A stretch of 37,273 bases of DNA, taken from a virus. A program made the translations under genes and the position numbers. The notes under the pieces are model-generated. The model ran no database searches. It was given only the letters and a program-made list of their open reading frames with translations, and was not told the origin of the DNA. The stretch is from the IMG/VR virus record IMGVR_UViG_3300025645_000190, positions 1-37,273 of that record. The stretch is one strand, 5' to 3'. Below, piece after piece: positions 4,264 to 31,881 of the stretch. The stretch's first letter is position 1. Every line of letters starts with the position of its first letter.

Positions 4264-5202
4264 TTAACTTAATTCTAATGTTCTAAGTTCAGGAAGTGCT
4301 CCTGTTGATCCTACAAATTCAATATCTACTGCTGCTCCAGCTCTTAACATAATAGAAGCTTTTGGAGAAAGAGGATATCCGTTAGAGGCTGTTACACCAG
4401 ATTGACCAACGTAAACTCTCTTATTATCCATGTTCATAATATGTAAGTACTTTCTAGAAGCTAGCGGAGAAGCTACAACATCTTGTGCTGTACCTGCTAC
4501 ACTTAAAACATTTGCTGCTGAAGCAATTGCTGCATTAGCAAGAGCTGCATCAGAAGTCTCAAGAGCATTTACAATATTAACGTCAAGTGCTTGTTTCCCA
4601 CCTTCTAAAGTAGAAGTAAGAGCTGTTCCTGCTCCGTCATACATGAAAGATTGGATTGAGTCAGAAGCTGCTGTAATGTCACGAATGTCTAAATCAACAG
4701 CGTCTACAGTAATCGAGTTACCGCCGTCAGCAATGTTAACGTCATTTGTGATACTTGTTACAGTTCCTATATCCCAAACACCACCTTGGTGAGAAGTCAC
4801 AGAATCACTTAAGTAATCCAAGTCTCTTATGTCAAGATTTGCTGCCGTTACTACAATAGAATCATTAATAAGGTTTACATCTAGACCAATATCAAGTCCA
4901 TTTGTAGTTGACGTAAAAAAGTCTGTTCCGTCTCCTAATCTAATTGAGTCATCAATATGAGATAAGTCTACAGCTATACTTATAGGACTCTTAAGGTTTA
5001 CATCTAATGCTCCTGATGTTGATGTGATAGCATCTCCGTTACCATCTCTAATAGCAGCATCTACAGCTAATCGATCTACTAAATTACCATCCACTACGGT
5101 ATCAATTACTTTTCCATCTGATCCTCGTACGTAAGCTCCTACACTGTCGCTATGTGAAATTGATTCAGCATCTGTAGTGTCAAAAACTAATTGTTCTTTC
5201 AT
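4264..5202 (-). CDS. Repeat-rich virion protein (LDIRDL repeats)
   Basis: 312 aa after a strong AGGAGG site. The centre contains degenerate repeats: DVNLxxDSI, AANLDIRDLDYLSDSV, AVDLDIRDITAASDSI, each roughly 20-40 residues, with DGTD/DGNG/DGAG turns at about 52, 91 and 188. This resembles repeat proteins seen in many phage tail regions. The C-terminal 70 residues (RKYLHIMNMDNKRVYVG onward) look like a separate beta domain. Probably a fibre or tail decoration protein; structural role inferred from repeats and neighbours. Confidence 0.82.
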   Translation of the reverse strand: MKEQLVFDTTDAESISHSDSVGAYVRGSDGKVIDTVVDGNLVDRLAVDAAIRDGNGDAITSTSGALDVNLKSPISIAVDLSHIDDSIRLGDGTDFFTSTTNGLDIGLDVNLINDSIVVTAANLDIRDLDYLSDSVTSHQGGVWDIGTVTSITNDVNIADGGNSITVDAVDLDIRDITAASDSIQSFMYDGAGTALTSTLEGGKQALDVNIVNALETSDAALANAAIASAANVLSVAGTAQDVVASPLASRKYLHIMNMDNKRVYVGQSGVTASNGYPLSPKASIMLRAGAAVDIEFVGSTGALPELRTLELS

Positions 5203-18939: not shown

Positions 18940-19142
18940 TTTATAACTCCTTAAAATTACATAAATTGTGAGGATCTTATGATCCATGTGTTAAAATAAT
19001 ACGATTTTGTCACACTTTTCACTTGACAATCTTGGTCTTAATTGGTATTCTTTACTACAGAGCCTCAATCCTTTCGGGTATGAAGATGGTTCAAAAAGCC
19101 GACATAAGCCTACTATTGTAAGCTAGAGGGACTTCCTCATTA
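18940..19142 (-). promoter_or_regulatory. Long structured 5' leader of the capsid mRNA
   Basis: About 200 bases without a gene separate the late promoter from the capsid start. On the minus strand it can form GAGG-CCTC (19138-19126), AGCTTAC/GTAGGCT with an AATA loop (19124-19107, one G-U), TTGTCA/TGACAA (19029-19007) and GGATC/GATCC with a 4-base loop (18985-18972). Other capsid-region leaders in this phage are about 10-30 bases, so this length is deliberate-looking. It may protect the RNA or control translation. Confidence 0.55.
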
Positions 19143-19159
19143 ATATAGTTGTTAAATTT
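19143..19159 (-). promoter_or_regulatory. Late promoter element, copy 2 (capsid)
   Basis: Identical 17-bp element on the minus strand, upstream of the capsid leader, inside the gap after the scaffold gene. Confidence 0.7.
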
Positions 19160-22735: not shown

Positions 22736-24214
22736 TTATTTTTTTTTCTTAAGTTGTAACACTTTACTAATAAAATCAGCAGCTTGTGTTGTTTTTTTAT
22801 TTGAGAACTTAGGACTCATAAAGGTATTTTTGTTGATATTAAGACCAAATCCAAAAGGAAAAGGATTCTTAGACCTTTGTATATTTCTTATTAAATAATA
22901 CAATGCAGGTATACCATCAACATGTCCTCCTTTTATTAACTTATCAGGAGTATCTGGTAATCTTTTAAAATCAGTTCTTTTGTCATTCCACTGACCATAT
23001 TCTAAATGATATATCAAATGGGAACATCTTTCGTGAATCTTTACTTTTCCAGTTCCTACCCACATTCTCATTTCATTAATCTGACCTTCTTTATTATCTT
23101 TTTTTGTAGATATAAAGCTTATACCATGTAAGTGATTCAAATCTTGCTGCATACCTAGATTTATATCCATAACTCTTAGATAAGCTTTGTGCTGTTCTTT
23201 TGTTCTTGGATCATAAAATCTTATTTTTTCTTTAACTGTAATTTCATCAGCTAACTTTTTAGTTGTCATTGTAGGACCGTTCATTACTAACTCATCCATT
23301 ATTACTAAACAACTTTCTTTAAAATCATAGTAAGTAAATATAGCTAAAGTTAAATCTTTATGTCCAATATCCATTCCAACATAAAAATCTCTATGTTCTG
23401 GAAGTTCTGGAGCAGTTTCATCATTAAATACTACAACGTCTTTATTTGATGAGAATTCTGGACATATTGTTGTTTCTTCATCTACAAATACTTCACACAT
23501 ATATTCTCTTCTAAAGTCAGGATCATCTTTTCCTCTAGGATATTCCTGAATGATCTCTTTAATTATTTCTGGTGTAAAGTTAGGGTTTTGATAAATATCA
23601 TATATTTTACATCTACCAGATGCTCTGTATGGATTCATAAACTTTTGTACAAATTCATGTTGAGGATCTCTTGATGGGGTAGATGCTAATATCATCCTAC
23701 CTCTTGTTGTTCGTATTGTAGGAGATAAGATAGATGTGATAGTATACGATAAATCGTTAACAAATCCTGCTTCATCGATCAGAACAAGCTCAGCCCTAGT
23801 ACCTCTTAAAGATTCTGCTGAAAGATCAGACCCCCCTAAGTGTATCTCTGATCCATTATAAAATTTAAATATTTTATCTTGAGTACTATAGTCAGGAACT
23901 AGTCTCTGTGGACATGTCTCTGTTATTTCACGCATAAGAGGTTGTATAATAGTCTTTGCATCTTTTTGTTTAGGAAGTAAGAATTTCACTATAGAGTTTG
24001 GGGCTTTAAGACATTGTTCGAGTGCTAATGTAACAAGCATGAAAGTCTTACCGAGTCGTCTACTACAAACTACTACACTTGTCCTAGTACTGTCATTCAT
24101 GATATTCTTTTTCATGTCTTTTTGTACATCAGTTAAAAGCCAAGTCAATTCTCCCATTTCCCATAGCTTTTCGATAGCTTCTTCTTTAGATAATTTAGTC
24201 TTCTTTCTAACCAC
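22736..24214 (-). CDS. terL: Terminase large subunit
   Basis: 492 aa. The ATPase part has a Walker A-like CSRRLGKT at 50-57, Walker B LVLIDEA at 143-149 and the coupling motif ASTP at 177-180. The nuclease part shows the RNase H-like acidic residues in GMDIG (D282), RVMD (D350) and GGHVDG (D433). It packages DNA into the head and cuts it. Translation starts at a GTG that overlaps the stop of the preceding gene (TAGTG) with AAGGAG upstream. All key residues are present. Confidence 0.95.
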   Translation of the reverse strand: MVRKKTKLSKEEAIEKLWEMGELTWLLTDVQKDMKKNIMNDSTRTSVVVCSRRLGKTFMLVTLALEQCLKAPNSIVKFLLPKQKDAKTIIQPLMREITETCPQRLVPDYSTQDKIFKFYNGSEIHLGGSDLSAESLRGTRAELVLIDEAGFVNDLSYTITSILSPTIRTTRGRMILASTPSRDPQHEFVQKFMNPYRASGRCKIYDIYQNPNFTPEIIKEIIQEYPRGKDDPDFRREYMCEVFVDEETTICPEFSSNKDVVVFNDETAPELPEHRDFYVGMDIGHKDLTLAIFTYYDFKESCLVIMDELVMNGPTMTTKKLADEITVKEKIRFYDPRTKEQHKAYLRVMDINLGMQQDLNHLHGISFISTKKDNKEGQINEMRMWVGTGKVKIHERCSHLIYHLEYGQWNDKRTDFKRLPDTPDKLIKGGHVDGIPALYYLIRNIQRSKNPFPFGFGLNINKNTFMSPKFSNKKTTQAADFISKVLQLKKKK

Positions 24215-24567
24215 TACTTATCTCCTTGAACTATTTTTAACAATTCAGCCTTAGTAGTCTTCTTTTTTGTTGGTTTAGAAATATCTGCATGACCTCTTAT
24301 CATACGAAGGTTTTTATGTAGTATGTCATAATTAACTATATCATTTTTATCAGATACTTTTGATCTGACAGCTTCTAGTATCTGCTCTATCCCAAGTATA
24401 CATATCTCTTCTTCTGGCGATATTCTTCTTTTTTCACCAATCTCTTCACCAAGACCATTTTCATGAATAATATCCCTAAGATCTTTATTATCTTCTTTAA
24501 GTTTATCAACTTGTTTTTTTAGGGCCTTTAGTTCTAGTTCAGCTTCTAGCTTTAATAAATCATCCAT
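24214..24567 (-). CDS. Probable terminase small subunit
   Basis: 117 aa directly in front of and coupled to the large terminase. The N-terminal coiled coil (residues 5-38) is followed by an ISPEEEICILGIEQILEA helix and LHKNLRMIRGH, a pattern I associate with small terminases of several phages. It would recognise the packaging site and load the large subunit. Identification rests mainly on position, size and helical layout. Confidence 0.6.
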   Translation of the reverse strand: MDDLLKLEAELELKALKKQVDKLKEDNKDLRDIIHENGLGEEIGEKRRISPEEEICILGIEQILEAVRSKVSDKNDIVNYDILHKNLRMIRGHADISKPTKKKTTKAELLKIVQGDK

Positions 24568-24890
24568 TAGAAATAGAACTTGTTTTCTTCACGTTTTTTA
24601 TTAATATCATTAATAGTCAATTTACCATAACCTTCGTTAATTTTGACTAGTTCTTTTTGAATTCTAATAATTTCGTCATTGAATACTTTTGAGTAATTAG
24701 GTTGTTCTTTGTGCATTAGATAGTATCTATATCCACATAAACCAGAAACTGACAATACTATAATAGATTGTGCAATATTAGGCGAATTGTAATAGAAAAA
24801 TGGGACCAGTGCTAATAATAGCACGAATGGAATTGCTTCAGTTAGTTTATTCAAGAATGTCTCCTTTATAAAGAGAATTAAACAATCCAT
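24567..24890 (-). CDS. Two-helix membrane protein
   Basis: 107 aa. Two hydrophobic helices at about 19-35 (FVLLLALVPFF) and 39-57 (AQSIIVLSVSGLC), followed by a charged, soluble C-terminal tail of about 45 residues (KVFNDEIIRIQKELVKINEG). No ribosome site is obvious. It overlaps the small terminase start by one base (TAATG). Holin- or spanin-like function is possible, since this position next to terminase is used for lysis genes in some phages. Confidence 0.65.
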   Translation of the reverse strand: MDCLILFIKETFLNKLTEAIPFVLLLALVPFFYYNSPNIAQSIIVLSVSGLCGYRYYLMHKEQPNYSKVFNDEIIRIQKELVKINEGYGKLTINDINKKREENKFYF

Positions 24891-24903
24891 TATGGGTATG
24901 TTA

Positions 24904-25047
24904 TTATCTCTTGTTGTTTGGTTTTGCTTTTCTTTTTAGTGCTTCTCTAATTCTAGAGAACCTCTCCTTTTTTTGAGTTTTTGTTTGTGATCCATCTTGG
25001 ATCTTTTTTAGTATTGGGTTTATAGCGTTTACGTCTAATGCCGACAT
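24904..25047 (-). CDS. 47-aa basic microprotein
   Basis: Starts at an ATG that overlaps the stop of the 280-aa gene by one base (TAATG), so translation is coupled. It reads MSALDVNAINPILKKIQDGS and then a highly basic tail (KKERFSRIREALKRKAKP). No family recognised. The basic C-terminus might contact nucleic acid. It fills an otherwise unexplained gap. Confidence 0.6.
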   Translation of the reverse strand: MSALDVNAINPILKKIQDGSQTKTQKKERFSRIREALKRKAKPNNKR

Positions 25048-25889
25048 TATCTTAACTTCATTCCGCTAAGTATTTTTCTTTTTAATAAATTTCTTTCTGC
25101 TTCTTTTTCTCTATCTTCTAAAGATGTATCAGCTTCTGCCATATCCATAATAGCTTCTTTATCATCCAACATTGCTAACATATCAGCATCTCCTGCTTGA
25201 TTAGCTAAAGTTTCTTTTACTCTGTCATCTCTATTATTTCTCAGTCCTTCGTAGTATTTCTTGTCTGCTGCTAACTTATCCATCTTAGCTGGAGAATTTG
25301 CATAATCTTTTCTAGCTTGCATTTCACCCATCATGACATTTTCATCTTCAGAAGATTGTCCAGTTGGAGATGCTTCTGCTAACTGTGAAAATAATGCTAA
25401 GGGTCCACCTAATGCTAACCCTGCTGCTTTACCAGCTCCCATTTTTCCTACTTTAGATCCTAGTTTACCAAGTAGACTCTTTAAACCTTGTTTCTTGTTT
25501 ATAGGAGTTTTTTTAGATAATGCTTGATTATCCATAGCATTTTTCATACTACCTAAATCAAATTCTTTTACCTTATTACCAACATCACTAATTAACTCTG
25601 GAGATCTTTTTAAATCACTACCTCTACTGATAGCTTTATCCATGAGTTCTTTACCTCTCATGCTTTTATCCATTGCTACTTTCTTTTGAAAATCATCACC
25701 TGATATAGATTTACCAAGAGTCTTCTCAAGGTCTTTAATTCTATCAGCTTCAACATTCTTTGAAATATCATCAACATCTATATTATTCATAGAATCCATG
25801 ATAGCTGTTGCATCTGGATCTAATTGTCTAAGCTTAGGTTCTGTTGAACCCATTCTTTTTAATAGTTTACTAAAATCATTATCATCCAT
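25047..25889 (-). CDS. Hypothetical protein, first gene of the head operon
   Basis: 280 aa, GGAGGG ribosome site. Mostly helical and charged, with one glycine/alanine-rich hydrophobic stretch at about 148-172 (GKMGAGKAAGLALGGPLALF). Highly charged ends and a possible membrane-active segment recall internal virion or DNA-ejection proteins of short-tailed phages, but there is no sequence proof. It lies directly behind a late promoter. Confidence 0.75.
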   Translation of the reverse strand: MDDNDFSKLLKRMGSTEPKLRQLDPDATAIMDSMNNIDVDDISKNVEADRIKDLEKTLGKSISGDDFQKKVAMDKSMRGKELMDKAISRGSDLKRSPELISDVGNKVKEFDLGSMKNAMDNQALSKKTPINKKQGLKSLLGKLGSKVGKMGAGKAAGLALGGPLALFSQLAEASPTGQSSEDENVMMGEMQARKDYANSPAKMDKLAADKKYYEGLRNNRDDRVKETLANQAGDADMLAMLDDKEAIMDMAEADTSLEDREKEAERNLLKRKILSGMKLR

Positions 25890-25919
25890 TATCCCTCCAG
25901 ATATATAAAGATGTACAAT

Positions 25920-25936
25920 ATATAGTTGTTAAATTT
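25920..25936 (-). promoter_or_regulatory. Late promoter element, copy 4
   Basis: Identical 17-bp element on the minus strand, 30 bases from the ATG of the 280-aa gene; it would start the terminase-side late operon. Confidence 0.7.
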
Positions 25937-26059
25937 ATGCGTTTTGTTTACAGAATAATCTTGTATTTGAATAATTTTAAGTAGTTGCGTTTTTGAATAG
26001 CTTTCCACTACCCTTATATACATAAAGATAATTGAAAAACCATTAATCTTATCTTAAGT

Positions 26060-26210
26060 TACCGATTAAAGGCGATAGGTTATTAACCCCAATATATCCT
26101 TGTAGTGTAGGCCTTCCGCTGGACTCTTCTGAGTGTCGAGTATCCAGTAAGCGACTTTCCTCACGCTTCCCTTCGGTCTTAACCTATTTCACGGTCCTAG
26201 ACTACAATTA
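26060..26210 (-). ncRNA. Structured noncoding RNA with own sigma70 promoter
   Basis: The region has no gene on either strand but is clearly structured. The start predicted from the promoter is near 26210. CCTAGACTACAA (26196-26207) and TTGTAGTGTAGG (26100-26111) form a 12-bp stem with one mismatch that closes the RNA. Inside lies CTGGA/TCCAG (26119-26147) with a nested ACTC/GAGT hairpin. TAACCTAT (26180-26187), inside the stem, is complementary to ATAGGTTA (26075-26082), outside it, giving a pseudoknot. The 3' end is not marked by a clean terminator. Alternatives: a long leader of the late operon. Confidence 0.6.
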
Positions 26211-26216
26211 GTATTA

Positions 26217-26244
26217 ATTATACAGAAATATAATAATATGTCAA
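26217..26244 (-). promoter_or_regulatory. Consensus sigma70 promoter of the structured RNA
   Basis: On the minus strand a perfect TTGACA (26244-26239) and a perfect TATAAT (26222-26217) are 16 bases apart. It is the only perfect sigma70 promoter seen on the minus strand and points into the structured region. Confidence 0.75.
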
Positions 26245-26258
26245 ATTAAATTAATTGT

Positions 26259-26287
26259 TTGACAAGAAGAAATAATACTGTTAATAT
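26259..26287 (+). promoter_or_regulatory. Rightward early promoter
   Basis: TTGACA, 17 bases, TAATAT, upstream of the first rightward gene. It is back-to-back with the RNA promoter at 26217-26244. The expected start falls at or next to the ATG at 26293, so the transcript may be leaderless. Confidence 0.65.
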
Positions 26288-26292
26288 TTATT

Positions 26293-26496
26293 ATGGGCAA
26301 AAGAGACGGTAAGAAAATTATAGAAACTATGGGCTACGTTATAGTAGCTCAGGTTCCTATGATTATGACATTTGAAGAAGATAAAGCTGCTTTCATAATA
26401 GAACATCTTGGTAACTCTATTGAAAGAGCTTATGATGTTATAGATATGTTTGGAGATAGAGGTGGAGATTTTGATCCCTTTGGAGATGAGGGGTGA
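26293..26496 (+). CDS. First rightward gene, hypothetical
   Basis: 67 aa. Basic start (MGKRDGKK), a hydrophobic centre (GYVIVAQVPMIMTF), and an acidic, glycine-rich tail (FGDRGGDFDPFGDEG). No ribosome site lies before the ATG, which is about 6 bases after the -10 box; leaderless translation or a later start (M13) are the alternatives. No family recognised. Confidence 0.55.
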   Translation: MGKRDGKKIIETMGYVIVAQVPMIMTFEEDKAAFIIEHLGNSIERAYDVIDMFGDRGGDFDPFGDEG

Positions 26497-26530
26497 TAAA
26501 CTTTATCTTATATTACAATTTAACATTCTT

Positions 26531-26559
26531 TCAAATGTATGCTAATGTGGGAGTATAAT
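26531..26559 (+). promoter_or_regulatory. Possible weak promoter
   Basis: A perfect TATAAT at 26554-26559 with only a poor -35 (TCAAAT at 17 bases). The GTG start of the next gene is 6 bases downstream. Confidence 0.35.
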
Positions 26560-26564
26560 TAAGG

Positions 26565-27011
26565 GTGACGGATATCAAAAACTCCCAGATTTTTAATGTT
26601 GATAACATACGCAAAGTGACAGATGTCCGTAACCTTAACTCTGTAGACCTAACAATCACTTTAATATGGTATCCCGGCTATTCTATATTTAGAGAACAAT
26701 ACTCGACAGGAAATTATGAATTGATAGGAAATATACTAAGAGATTTAGCAATTTCTTATGAAACTATGTCATTATGGCTACTTAGAGGTACATATGAGAG
26801 GTATCTATCCTCAATATTAGATGAAGACTACGCAGATATGATGTTAGATAATACTATTTACGATAAACACTTTACTATATTACGAGGATGTAAGTTATCA
26901 TATAAACTATTTTATAAAGACATTTTATATGTGTATAAAGACGGTAGAGTGTTAGTTTCTAATAGTTTAGAAGCAAAAAAAGCATTTAGAGACATAAGGG
27001 GTATAAAATGA
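26565..27011 (+). CDS. Hypothetical protein, GTG start
   Basis: 148 aa. An in-frame stop at 26556 excludes a longer form, so the start is the GTG at 26565 or later. No ribosome site precedes it, and it is 6 bases after TATAAT. The beginning has two similar units, TDIKNS and TDVRNL. The body is helical and aromatic (RDLAISYETMSLWLLRGTYE, DKHFTILRGCKLSYKLFYKD). No family recognised. It overlaps the next gene by ATGA. Confidence 0.65.
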   Translation: MTDIKNSQIFNVDNIRKVTDVRNLNSVDLTITLIWYPGYSIFREQYSTGNYELIGNILRDLAISYETMSLWLLRGTYERYLSSILDEDYADMMLDNTIYDKHFTILRGCKLSYKLFYKDILYVYKDGRVLVSNSLEAKKAFRDIRGIK

Positions 27012-27298
27012 AAGCAATAAAGGAGCTAATGTTAATATGCGATATAGAATCTGACGAAAACAAAGTAGGTTGGAGAAAACGTAGAGATGCTATGCAAGAT
27101 TGGGTAGACAAGTATATTCAAACAGTTAATACTCAACAAAGTGTATTAAATCCTAAGGTTTTTGACTCTGATTTTATGGATTTTATAAAAGAATCTTTAG
27201 CAAAAAACTTAGCAGAAGAGTTGACAACTACAACTAAATATGAGATAACTGATAATAACATAAAGGCTAAGTTAGTGGTATTAAATGGAAATAAATAA
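27008..27298 (+). CDS. Hypothetical helical protein, 96 aa
   Basis: Overlaps the previous stop (ATGA). Charged and helical (ENKVGWRKRRDAMQDWVDKY, DFMDFIKESLAKNLAEELTT). No family recognised; it belongs to a coupled run of five small genes. Confidence 0.65.
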   Translation: MKAIKELMLICDIESDENKVGWRKRRDAMQDWVDKYIQTVNTQQSVLNPKVFDSDFMDFIKESLAKNLAEELTTTTKYEITDNNIKAKLVVLNGNK

Positions 27299-27572
27299 TA
27301 ATAGATATTCAGTAAGAAGAGCAGAAGACTCAGAAGGTCTAGTAGTATCTATTCCAAAAGGTGAAATTATGATAGATTTTTTAGATTTTGAAGAAACAAA
27401 AAGAGGAGTGGTGTATAAAGACGCTTCTGGGTATGGAGTACCAATAACTGCTATTATAATTAACTCAGAAGAAGGGTCTTTTTCAATACAAGCTGTCAAA
27501 AAAACAAAATTAGCGAATAAATTGTTGAAAATATTAGCAGAAACTGATAATTATTACTTGGTGAGAGTATGA
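27285..27572 (+). CDS. Hypothetical protein, 95 aa
   Basis: Overlaps the previous gene by 14 bases and the next by 4. Beta-rich start (RYSVRRAEDSEGLVVSIPKG), acidic middle, and a helical end (KLANKLLKILAETDNYYLVR). No recognised motif. Confidence 0.6.
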   Translation: MEINNNRYSVRRAEDSEGLVVSIPKGEIMIDFLDFEETKRGVVYKDASGYGVPITAIIINSEEGSFSIQAVKKTKLANKLLKILAETDNYYLVRV

Positions 27573-27838
27573 GTGAATACTTTACTTCATATTCAACAAT
27601 AGAAAATGGAGTGACAATTAACGTTTTAGAGATACATCCGGTATATAACGATTATATAAGTTTTATTTTGTATGATGATGTTTTTAACTATATACAGAGA
27701 GCAGCAGATTATGAAGCATCTCATTTTTTTAATTGGATGAAACTTGATGAGGTGTATATACATCCTGAATGTAAGAATAGGCTGGAACATATACAATTAG
27801 CAAGAGTTAAAGGTGTCAAATTAATAATAAAAATATAA
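27569..27838 (+). CDS. Hypothetical protein, 89 aa
   Basis: ATGA overlap with the gene before. Aromatic-rich (VYNDYISFILYDDVFNYIQR, ASHFFNWMKLDEVYIHPEC). No family recognised; last gene of the coupled run that begins at 26565. Confidence 0.6.
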   Translation: MSEYFTSYSTIENGVTINVLEIHPVYNDYISFILYDDVFNYIQRAADYEASHFFNWMKLDEVYIHPECKNRLEHIQLARVKGVKLIIKI

Positions 27839-27845
27839 GGAAATT

Positions 27846-27920
27846 ATGAAAATCATGTTACAACTTATTAGAATTGCTATATATACCTTTATTATTTACA
27901 AATTGGTACAATCATGTTAG
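27846..27920 (+). CDS. 24-aa hydrophobic microprotein (tentative)
   Basis: AAGGAAA lies just before the ATG. The peptide is one hydrophobic helix (MLQLIRIAIYTFIIYKLVQSC). Its start region is a near-duplicate of the next gene's start, and the two overlap. It may be a real single-span peptide or a leftover from that duplication. Confidence 0.35.
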   Translation: MKIMLQLIRIAIYTFIIYKLVQSC

Positions 27921-28084
27921 AACTTATTAAAGTAATAATACTTGCATGTCAAGTTACAAGTGCAAGAGAACATGTTAACTATGATATAGTGTATAAAAGG
28001 CAAATTCAATGTCAAAAAAGACTGTTAGGATGTACGAAAGGCTCAAGCTTTAAGTTATTTGAGTGCTTAAAGGAGAGAAAATGA
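27914..28084 (+). CDS. Small cysteine-containing, possibly exported protein
   Basis: 56 aa. The short hydrophobic start (LELIKVIILACQVTSA) could be a signal peptide, with ILAC as a marginal lipobox. The rest is basic with cysteines at 12, 33, 40 and 51. It overlaps the ATG at 28081 as ATGA. Function unknown. Confidence 0.5.
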   Translation: MLELIKVIILACQVTSAREHVNYDIVYKRQIQCQKRLLGCTKGSSFKLFECLKERK

Positions 28085-28317
28085 AAAAATATAGAATTAT
28101 AGAAGAAGCATCTAATGGTTATGTAAGGTTTTACATAGAAGAACGATATAAAAAATTTTTTATATTCACGAAATACAAAAGAGTAGGGTGGTCATGTGAC
28201 ACTGAACAAGGTGTAAGGTCGGAATTAGAGAGATTATTAGCATATGATGTTCTTGAAAAAAGAAAAGAAGAAGAAAGGAAATCTCATCCTAAATATAAAA
28301 AAGTAATAAAGATATAA
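28081..28317 (+). CDS. Hypothetical basic protein, 78 aa
   Basis: I chose the ATG at 28081 over an in-frame GTG at 28063, because AAAGGAGAG lies at the right distance and the ATG overlaps the upstream stop. The sequence is aromatic and basic (FYIEERYKKFFIFTKYKRVG) with a lysine/arginine-rich helix at the end. Unknown function. Confidence 0.65.
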   Translation: MKKYRIIEEASNGYVRFYIEERYKKFFIFTKYKRVGWSCDTEQGVRSELERLLAYDVLEKRKEEERKSHPKYKKVIKI

Positions 28318-28329
28318 AAAGGATGTAAA

Positions 28330-28506
28330 ATGATTTGTAAATATTGTAAGAAAAGTCACGGAAAGGAGTTAAAATGGCTCTATAAAGGTGGAGTTACTTA
28401 TGTAAATGATCCAGTGTTACAGACCTGTATAGTCCTTAGAAGGATGAATAGCACTACTGCAGGAGATTATTTGCGCAACATATTTAAAAAGATCATGAAG
28501 GGGTAA
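28330..28506 (+). CDS. 58-aa protein with CxxC
   Basis: Begins MICKYCKKSHGKELKWLYKG, with C3, C6 and H10 plus C33 as possible zinc ligands. It continues with a helical end (STTAGDYLRNIFKKIMKG). Too short for the usual gene finders, but it fills the gap between two genes with matching frame and spacing. Confidence 0.5.
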   Translation: MICKYCKKSHGKELKWLYKGGVTYVNDPVLQTCIVLRRMNSTTAGDYLRNIFKKIMKG

Positions 28507-28508
28507 TA

Positions 28509-28658
28509 ATGATAACTGTCCGAAATAGCATTATAGCAGTATCTATTCTTTCTATAGGGTGTATTATCCTATCAGAGCTAGGAGAAAATTTTTATTTTGT
28601 TATTTTACAAATATTATTATATACTATAATTGCACATTTAATTATAAAGGAAAATTAA
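28509..28658 (+). CDS. 49-aa membrane protein
   Basis: Two hydrophobic segments at about 7-22 (SIIAVSILSIGCIIL) and 28-46 (FYFVILQILLYTIIAHLII), ending KEN. It starts 3 bases after one stop and ends 1 base before the next ATG, as expected in a compact operon. Unknown function; possible holin or superinfection protein. Confidence 0.5.
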   Translation: MITVRNSIIAVSILSIGCIILSELGENFYFVILQILLYTIIAHLIIKEN

Positions 28659-28659
28659 G

Positions 28660-28908
28660 ATGTTTGATCCAATAATTTTAGGTAAAGGTGGCAGTATGTT
28701 TTTAGTTATAAGAGGTAATTATCATGAATTTTATGATACAAAAAAAGAAGCTGTAAAAGCTATAGAGGATTATTCTACTCATAGTATGAGCAGCTTTGTA
28801 TATAGATTGTTTGAAATAAGTAAAGAACACGAGTTCAACATTATAGATGTTGAAGAAAAACGAGAGGTTACAGAGACTGTAAGTAAAGTAGAGTTTACTG
28901 ATGTTTGA
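28660..28908 (+). CDS. Hypothetical protein, 82 aa
   Basis: AAGGAAAA ribosome site. Residues 14-33 (FLVIRGNYHEFYDTKKEAVK) resemble small phage proteins that fold as a beta strand plus helix, but no name can be given. An internal M14 start is possible. Overlaps the next gene by 8 bases. Confidence 0.6.
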   Translation: MFDPIILGKGGSMFLVIRGNYHEFYDTKKEAVKAIEDYSTHSMSSFVYRLFEISKEHEFNIIDVEEKREVTETVSKVEFTDV

Positions 28909-29119
28909 TATAATGATTAAGATATTACCAAATAACCGCTTAATAGTCCGAGATACTCGATTTGACACGTCCGTGAACATCAGAGCTAACCAACTATCAG
29001 AGTATATAGAAAGTATCTTAGACGTTCAATTTGACGCTCAGAAGGAATGGGACGACAAAGTAGAAGATCTTAGTAAAAATGATGTAAATAGATTTAATAT
29101 TAATTCCGGGGAGGATTAG
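28901..29119 (+). CDS. Hypothetical acidic protein, 72 aa
   Basis: N-terminal strand region (IKILPNNRLIVRDTRFDTSV) and an acidic helix (LSEYIESILDVQFDAQKEWD). GC-richer codon use than the adjacent genes in parts (GACACGTCC). No family recognised. Confidence 0.6.
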   Translation: MFDIMIKILPNNRLIVRDTRFDTSVNIRANQLSEYIESILDVQFDAQKEWDDKVEDLSKNDVNRFNINSGED

Positions 29120-29874: not shown

Positions 29875-29904
29875 GAATATACGCACCTATGAATATACGC
29901 ACCT
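29875..29904 (+). repeat. Iteron copies 1 and 2 (GAATATACGCACCTA)
   Basis: Two tandem copies, GAATATACGCACCTAT then GAATATACGCACCTAC, spaced by 16 bases (start to start). Confidence 0.8.
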
Positions 29905-29964
29905 ACTAAATAGATATTGTTTGTCAACTTAATTAATCTTAAGTATGTATCTATTACATGGTAA

Positions 29965-30001
29965 GGAATATACGCATCTATGTTGCCAACTATCTGTGGC
30001 T
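29965..30001 (+). repeat. Iteron copy 3 with dyad
   Basis: GGAATATACGCATCT (29965-29979) is followed at 29984-30001 by TGCCA-N8-TGGCT. Confidence 0.75.
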
Positions 30002-30023
30002 ATCATGTGACCCAACAGCATCA

Positions 30024-30055
30024 GGAATATACGCACCTGCCAACTATATGTGGCT
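30024..30055 (+). repeat. Iteron copy 4 with dyad
   Basis: GGAATATACGCACCT (30024-30038) runs straight into TGCCA-N8-TGGCT (30038-30055). Confidence 0.75.
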
Positions 30056-31077: not shown

Positions 31078-31110
31078 AAAAATGCCTCATATCTGAGGCG
31101 TTCTTTTTTA
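31078..31110. terminator. Bidirectional intrinsic terminator
   Basis: GCCTCA-TATC-TGAGGC stem with T-runs on both sides (TTCTTTTTT on plus; ATTTTTGT on minus). It ends the rightward operon from 30337 and, on the minus strand, the RNA from the late element at 31370. Confidence 0.88.
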
Positions 31111-31368
31111 TACACAAATTGGTTAGGATTTTGGCATAACTCTCTTTTACTAGTATAAGGTCACTAGCCGAAAGTCATGCTAAATAGATTATGTTTACTT
31201 TTTCTATTTGGCTTTTGCTGTTAAGCAATTTATCCAAGATCTTAAAGCGTTCCGCTCAAGTCTTTTGAAGGTCGTTTCTTGAGTACACAGCTTTTAAACT
31301 TCATGTGCCTAGTCGAAAAATCATGTTGCCAATCAGAATCATTTTTTAACGGTCTCTAAAATCTCTTA
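31085..31368 (-). ncRNA. Late-promoter-driven structured noncoding RNA
   Basis: No coding gene follows the leftward late element at 31370, yet about 280 bases later there is a terminator on the same strand. In between, the minus strand can form GCACA/TGTGT, CTCAAG/CTTGAG (31281-31253), AGCG/CGCT, GCTT/AAGC and CTTT-CGG-CTAGT/ACTAG-T-AAAG (about 31173-31144). Promoter, dense hairpins and terminator together define an RNA gene. Known families such as phi29 pRNA or tRNA are not recognised. Confidence 0.6.
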
Positions 31369-31369
31369 A

Positions 31370-31386
31370 ATATAGTTGTTAAATTT
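31370..31386 (-). promoter_or_regulatory. Late promoter element, copy 5 (noncoding RNA)
   Basis: Identical 17-bp element on the minus strand, embedded in the rightward gene half, with no protein gene downstream. Confidence 0.65.
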
Positions 31387-31458
31387 ATCTTACGTATGTT
31401 TTCCGTAACATATAATTATTTTCATTTTTTGTCTTATATCAATCATTTACATTTAAAA

Positions 31459-31524
31459 TGTATCTGTTTAAATTGTCGAGGCTCAAACAGATACAATTAA
31501 AAATGATGCAGTAGCGTTTGCATC
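31459..31524. other. Two tandem strong hairpins
   Basis: TGTATCTGTTT (31459-31469) pairs perfectly with AAACAGATACA (31485-31495), giving an 11-bp stem and a 15-base loop. GATGCA (31505-31510) pairs with TGCATC (31519-31524). Neither has a U-run on either strand, so they are not terminators. They may be protein sites or single-strand structures for replication start. Confidence 0.55.
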
Positions 31525-31636
31525 TAGTCCAATATTAGCTACTAAATAAATTATAGCACGATAAGAGTATGAAAGCAAGGAATATTTTAAGTAAAGTGTA
31601 AATTTTACAATGAGTAAAAAATATACAAAAAGATAA

Positions 31637-31668
31637 GGAATATACGCACTTGCCATAGATAGTTGGCA
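31637..31668 (+). repeat. Iteron copy 5 with dyad
   Basis: GGAATATACGCACTT (31637-31651) followed by TGCCA-N8-TGGCA (31651-31668), here a perfect dyad whose core is reversed relative to copies 3 and 4. Confidence 0.75.
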
Positions 31669-31789
31669 GTCCAGATTGCTCCAGAATAGCTTTAAAAGTT
31701 TTATGAGTAGTAAGTCATGGATAACATTTAAACAGATTTTAGACTATGTGCAGAGTCGATTAAGGTTATAAATAAAAGTTAGTTACACA

Positions 31790-31804
31790 GGAATATACGC
31801 AACT
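31790..31804 (+). repeat. Iteron copy 6
   Basis: GGAATATACGCAACT, about 78 bases upstream of the next -35 box and without a dyad. Confidence 0.75.
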
Positions 31805-31881
31805 AAAGAAGATTTAAGTTGACAGCGGAAAAGTTACGGATGTCAAGGAAAAAATAAAAAGAATATAAGTGATAATAAGTA

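Follow-up and report, generated by a model that had tools for sequence, protein, structure and literature searches.

Two related transcripts predicted from a virus record of 37,273 bases (the window, that is, the whole stretch of DNA analysed) very probably represent a new family of structured noncoding RNAs, which was seen in 10 distinct genomes of uncultured phages. RNA-1 (31078-31386, minus strand) lies inside the rightward early region, between iterons, and comprises a structured RNA of about 235 bases behind a late promoter element. Its paralogue RNA-2 is preceded by a sigma-70 promoter and, as judged from the two promoter types, a single RNA family would occur in an early and a late version within one phage. 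The best explanation of these data is probably a family of stand-alone structured RNAs, with a late RNA-1 and an early RNA-2, acting in trans. The main features of RNA-1 and the late promoter element are listed below.

31133..31367, minus strand: structured body of RNA-1, from the P1 5' arm to the P8 3' arm (homologues in G001/G007, G005, L212 and G024; covariation)
31240..31361, minus strand: P1-P2-P5 junction domain of RNA-1, common to RNA-2 (full-length match to covariance model R1, 45.1 bits)
31081..31102, both strands: bidirectional intrinsic terminator (terminator scan), ending RNA-1 leftward and the convergent early operon rightward
17522, 19143, 22709, 25920 and 31370, minus strand: exact copies of the late element AAATTTAACAACTATAT in the window
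31370..31386, minus strand: late promoter element of RNA-1, an exact match to AAATTTAACAACTATAT
31387..31410, minus strand: TTACGG...TACGTA box immediately preceding the late element of RNA-1, with a putative function

Genome Setting and Late Promoter Element

The closest long relative, G007 (84,758 bases with a 123-base terminal repeat), shows that the window is a portion of a larger genome, in which the virion genes run leftward and an early region runs rightward. The 17-base late element AAATTTAACAACTATAT occurs in five exact copies, every one on the minus strand, against about 1.5e-4 expected by chance in the window. With up to three mismatches, six matches were found against 1.5 expected, a number reached in none of 100 shuffles. 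Four of the five exact copies are located upstream of leftward late genes and the fifth, at RNA-1, has no gene behind it, as the sequence-only reading had described; the coordinates given there were also right. The TTACGG...TACGTA box adjoining this fifth copy is kept in G007, G005 and L212 and occurs in a variant form in G024; none of the window's four remaining late promoters has it.

Sigma-70 and T4 late promoters look different from the late element, whose occurrence was confined to phages with a portal protein at least about 62% identical. Neither the element nor the RNA was detected in the portal-related G016 and G018 or in five genome bins. A highly conserved leader of about 140 bases (18990-19143, minus strand) was also observed between a late promoter and a 434-aa gene, which, judged by its position, is probably the major capsid gene. 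The 5' hairpin of this leader, GAGGAAGTCCCTC, is swapped for other hairpins in L013 and L014, and its alifold z is only -2.1.

RNA-1 Fold and Covariation

Homologues of RNA-1 with the same promoter were identified in four other phage genomes, the late element lying directly upstream of the RNA in all five homologues. The copies of G001/G007 (mutually identical) and G005 show 71% identity, the fourth is that of L212, and the distant fifth, from G024, was assigned from a sequence profile and an alignment only. The 516-base gap of G010 contains no late element and shows no similarity to RNA-1. Terminator hairpins occur at the equivalent place in G007, G005 and L212, and the terminator of the window, predicted by the earlier reading on the RNA-1 strand, turned out to be bidirectional and to serve the early operon as well.

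The window RNA-1 alone returned a fold z of -2.6, with one of 200 shuffles as good, and the advantage of the sense over the antisense strand in folding is only slight. The five-homologue alignment gave a column-shuffle alifold z of -5.9, reached by none of 300 shuffles, thus bearing out the foldable RNA proposed for this interval; on this comparative evidence, the fold of RNA-1 is not due to chance. The homologues are strongly divergent, yet their helices are kept by two-sided changes. The stem CTCAAG/CTTGAG of the window reads CTTGAG/CTCAAG, CTCGG/CCGAG or CTACAA/TTGTAG in relatives, and the CTAGT/ACTAG stem, also singled out beforehand for a covariation check, likewise shows changes on both sides. 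Altogether, 12 pairs changed on both sides in this small set of five sequences (0 of 500 shuffles), and on four of five measures every one of the 500 shuffles fell short of the pair counts. With the helices of the family placed by hand, 312 of 326 and 185 of 191 cells were paired, and for P1, P2 and P5-P9 of RNA-1 the paired share was 97%, percentages that lean towards the model since the arms were placed manually; the alifold analysis, the pair-count shuffles and the R1 search described below are more independent tests.

The five hairpins anticipated by the sequence-only reading stood as a structured core but not as a string: a long-range P1/P2 stem closes a junction, which is followed by three or four hairpins, namely P6, P7 and P8 at the 3' side, plus P9. 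No reading frame was found to be conserved across the copies. A small protein in place of the RNA was therefore rejected, as frames are not conserved and indels break them. With promoter, helices and terminator all conserved in relatives, the earlier proposal of a stand-alone leftward structured RNA made from a late promoter is strongly supported.

RNA-2, a Paralogue behind an Early Promoter

Weak profile matches of RNA-1 at about 26.1 kb led to RNA-2, a paralogue missed by the earlier reading. The corresponding features are the following.

about 25999..26207, minus strand: RNA-2, in the intergenic region between the divergent early and late genes, adjoining the terminase operon on its upstream side
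26217..26244, minus strand: sigma-70 promoter of RNA-2, TTGACA-16-TATAAT, matching 12 of 12 consensus positions
25920..25936, minus strand: late promoter of the leftward operon containing terminase, an exact late element downstream of RNA-2

Sites with a 12/12 sigma-70 consensus number three in 7 kb, the remaining two being rightward early promoters. RNA-2 has nine distinct homologues, and its position is the same in every copy that could be seen; these other copies are preceded by TTGAC-type -35 and TA...T-type -10 hexamers, weak in G010. The RNA-2 alignment yielded an alifold z of -10.8 (0 of 300 column shuffles). Within the P1-P5 domain 96.6% of cells are paired, and two-sided changes affect 16 of 24 pairs, a result obtained in none of 500 shuffles. 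The terminator scan of the window revealed no obvious terminator for RNA-2.

Neither copy is universal, since no RNA-1 could be found in G010 and no RNA-2 in G024. Base pairing between RNA-1 and RNA-2 was no better than that of shuffled sequence. At the same early/late switch, a more distant relative (G016, 4600-5000, locus L188) carries a different intergenic sequence, its late strand bearing a sigma-70-like promoter (TTGACT..TATAAT); this is possibly another, unrelated RNA.

Shared Architecture and a Candidate Tertiary Contact

The covariance model R1, built solely from RNA-2, matched the window RNA-1 with 45.1 bits and an E-value of 6.6e-9, and the RNA-1 copies of L010, L212 and G007 were, like that of the window, matched over their full length, with E-values between 2e-9 and 2e-7; the RNA-1 of G024 was beyond its reach. 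Since a model of RNA-2 recognises RNA-1 full-length, the two RNAs share descent. Membership of the family is defined by P1, the A/AANG loop, P2 and the P5 junction, all of which RNA-1 possesses by this model. In the shared core, P1 (8-12 pairs) and a short P2 flank the conserved A/AANG internal loop and close the junction with its hairpins. P1 terminates in a constant G-C pair, followed by the internal loop and by P2, which is CCG/CGG in RNA-1 and CCG/CGG, GCG/CGC or ACG/CGU in RNA-2. A P5 hairpin with a GA..YYMAAAAG-like loop is common to both RNAs, and three 3' hairpins, P6, P7 and P8, come after the junction.

A GAAA-loop hairpin with a covarying stem is present in the RNA-2 of G005, G006, G009 and G010. 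The P1 base of the G005 and G006 copies reads C-UAUGR / UCUAAG-G, near the classical 11-nt GAAA tetraloop receptor, while in G009 and G010 UAA replaces UAU at the receptor-like site (CUAAG variants). Hairpin and receptor-like site are both missing in the window, G007, G026, L212 and G008. This joint distribution fits a real tetraloop-receptor contact in RNA-2, although it may reflect few independent events. Hairpin P3 is missing from some copies and P4 varies between a long and a short form; each of the four possible combinations was seen, which suggests exchange of modules among phages.

Searches for Known RNAs and Relatives

The comparison with Rfam suggested by the earlier reading was carried out with release 15, and no family matched at its gathering score or at a permissive E-value; only chance-level matches far below the cut-off were returned. 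RNase P RNA, tmRNA and 6S RNA were discarded as well, each in a search with working controls. For RNase P RNA (RF00010/RF00011) nothing was returned from eight phage records up to an E-value of 10, the controls having matched in 11 of 14 genomes. For tmRNA (RF00023) the covariance model had no match and ARAGORN found none, and for 6S RNA (RF00013) the model was again negative, the fold being a multi-branched junction and not a long hairpin with a central bubble. A search with the pRNA model (RF00044) was without match, with no control matched either, and the permissive library scan was also negative for this family.

The RNA family occurred in none of the cultured phage records searched, the bacterial genomes searched with the RNA-2 pattern contained no homologue, and R1 run against five genome bins gave one chance-level match only. 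Pattern matches at L177, L207, L210, L211 and loci outside the phage group were dismissed as chance, and the terminase protein used as bait returned no relatives. By portal protein, the nearest cultured relative is a Silvanigrella phage (28% identity), which does not have these RNAs. Portal relatives in genome bins span Bdellovibrionales, Bacteroidia and others and so point to no single host.

A scan of 20 G007 early proteins brought up neither an RNA-guided nuclease nor a known RNA-binding partner. A TnpB/IscB guide RNA was rejected, no such nuclease domain being present among the large and mid-size G007 early proteins scanned. The G007 early region contains consecutive genes for a HATPase, an AAA_5 (MoxR-like) protein and a VWA/metallopeptidase (DUF2201) protein (23657-28976, L180), and two Clp-protease genes are also present in this genome.

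Iterons and a Neighbouring Small RNA

The bracketing of RNA-1 by iterons, noted in the sequence-only reading, was confirmed in the window, G007 and L212, where the repeats occupy both sides in a single orientation relative to RNA-1.

29875..30040, plus strand: iterons GAATATACGCA(C) flanking RNA-1, with GGAATATACGCA(C) copies at about 29875-30027 (counterparts in G007 and L212)
31638..31805, plus strand: iterons flanking RNA-1 on the opposite side, with GGAATATACGCA(C) copies at about 31638-31791 (counterparts in G007, L010 and L212)

L010 reaches its contig end here, with iterons visible on one side. No iterons of this type were found in G024 or near RNA-2.

A second small leftward RNA (31505-31542, minus strand), just upstream of RNA-1 and with a TATAAT at about 31550, was predicted to form an H-type pseudoknot from the stems GTAGC/GCTAC and GATGCA/TGCATC, with a terminator-like hairpin after it. 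Its counterparts in G007, L212 and L010 have GTAGGC/GCCTAC with GATGCG/CGCATC or CGAGCG/CGCTCG, the second stem changing on both sides and the first gaining one pair.

Proposed Function and Alternatives

The likeliest reading, given the promoter pair, the fold and the lack of a coding frame, is a structured RNA that acts in trans during both phases of infection. Judging from promoter type, RNA-2 would be made early and RNA-1 together with the virion genes, and both transcripts would start at P1 or a few bases before it. It is probable that the two are separate trans-acting RNAs, which would work as compact folded molecules, presumably bound to protein. Their target might be a host or phage component of gene expression needing control in both phases, with modules re-tuned between phages; gene expression is our leading guess and a tentative one. 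It is conceivable, and we would not put it higher, that an early/late RNA control pair with host-type and phage-type promoters and a tetraloop-receptor fold steers infection in trans via a host machine.

Since RNA-2 has no obvious terminator, it might instead be a leader of the late operon, and RNA-1 would then be a cis-acting element by descent. The location of RNA-2 directly upstream of the late promoter and operon in all visible copies agrees with such control, but RNA-1 ends at a terminator with no gene behind it, and the late transcripts would not contain RNA-2, since the late promoter lies downstream of it; we regard a leader function as quite unlikely. An origin function, with RNA-1 as a regulator or primer precursor at an iteron-marked phage origin, appears unlikely too. 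It draws on the iterons set in one orientation around RNA-1 in the window, G007, L010 and L212, on the small pseudoknot RNA located between iterons and RNA-1, and on the upstream TTACGG..CGTA box that RNA-1 has for itself. The conserved iterons leave some probability to the replication role put forward in the earlier reading, but G024 has RNA-1 without them and RNA-2 lies far from any, and a primer needs no fold kept by two-sided changes in many helices. A regulator function, also among the proposals of that reading, is still a candidate.

A decoy or inhibitor capturing a host defence or RNA-processing factor would be in keeping with the strong sigma-70 promoter of RNA-2, which would act at the start of infection, and with the arms-race-like exchange of P3 and P4 among phages. 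No mimicry was apparent, however, as RNase P, tmRNA, 6S and every other Rfam family were unmatched, and a decoy would have no need of a late copy, which leaves this role with a low probability. Decidedly improbable is an RNA-only assembly of the ornate phage kind, like GOLLD, whose expression is reported to rise during phage lysis, or ROOL, which forms nanocages (PMC12286853). The RNAs are phage-encoded and elaborately folded, with a tetraloop and receptor, but their length is about 210-300 bases only, whereas many GOLLD RNAs exceed 800 bases (PMC12286853), the window has no tRNA, and sequence and structure do not match. A packaging RNA like phi29 pRNA, which the earlier reading had entertained and which a late promoter common to RNA-1 and the virion genes would suit, is strongly disfavoured: the large terminase and the portal of the phage are of the ordinary kind, the family includes a member behind an early sigma-70 promoter, and the Rfam library scan gave no match (in the separate pRNA search no control matched).

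It is uncommon for a new RNA family to show so much covariation together with a likely tertiary contact while lacking any relative in Rfam, and to our knowledge no phage RNA family kept in an early and a late version has been described. The family provides a defined molecule, with predicted promoter, fold and ends, for studying structured RNA across the phage infection cycle, and with the covariance model and the two promoter classes at hand it can be tested directly in any cultured relative.

Comparison with Known Systems

Among known RNAs, GOLLD and ROOL resemble RNA-1 and RNA-2 in being phage-encoded, stand-alone and elaborately structured, with no known protein partner. The present RNAs are much shorter and unrelated to them in sequence and structure, form two paralogues with early and late promoters, and are not accompanied by tRNA genes in the window. 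The likeness to phi29 pRNA consists in a structured RNA made by the phage itself, whereas the fold is another one, the phage has a conventional TerL and the family has an early-promoter paralogue. Motifs resembling RNase P RNA could be picked out by eye, GAGGAAAGUC in RNA-2 and GCAAAAGCCAAAUAG in RNA-1, but they are unconserved across the family and differ in order from those of RNase P, neither of whose two models gave a match. The OOP RNA of phage lambda is a short leftward transcript near the phage origin, antisense to a gene and ending at a terminator. RNA-1 shares with it the leftward direction, the nearness to a phage origin, which is putative here, and the terminator, but differs from this short antisense RNA in being structured, kept by covariation and accompanied by a distant paralogue.
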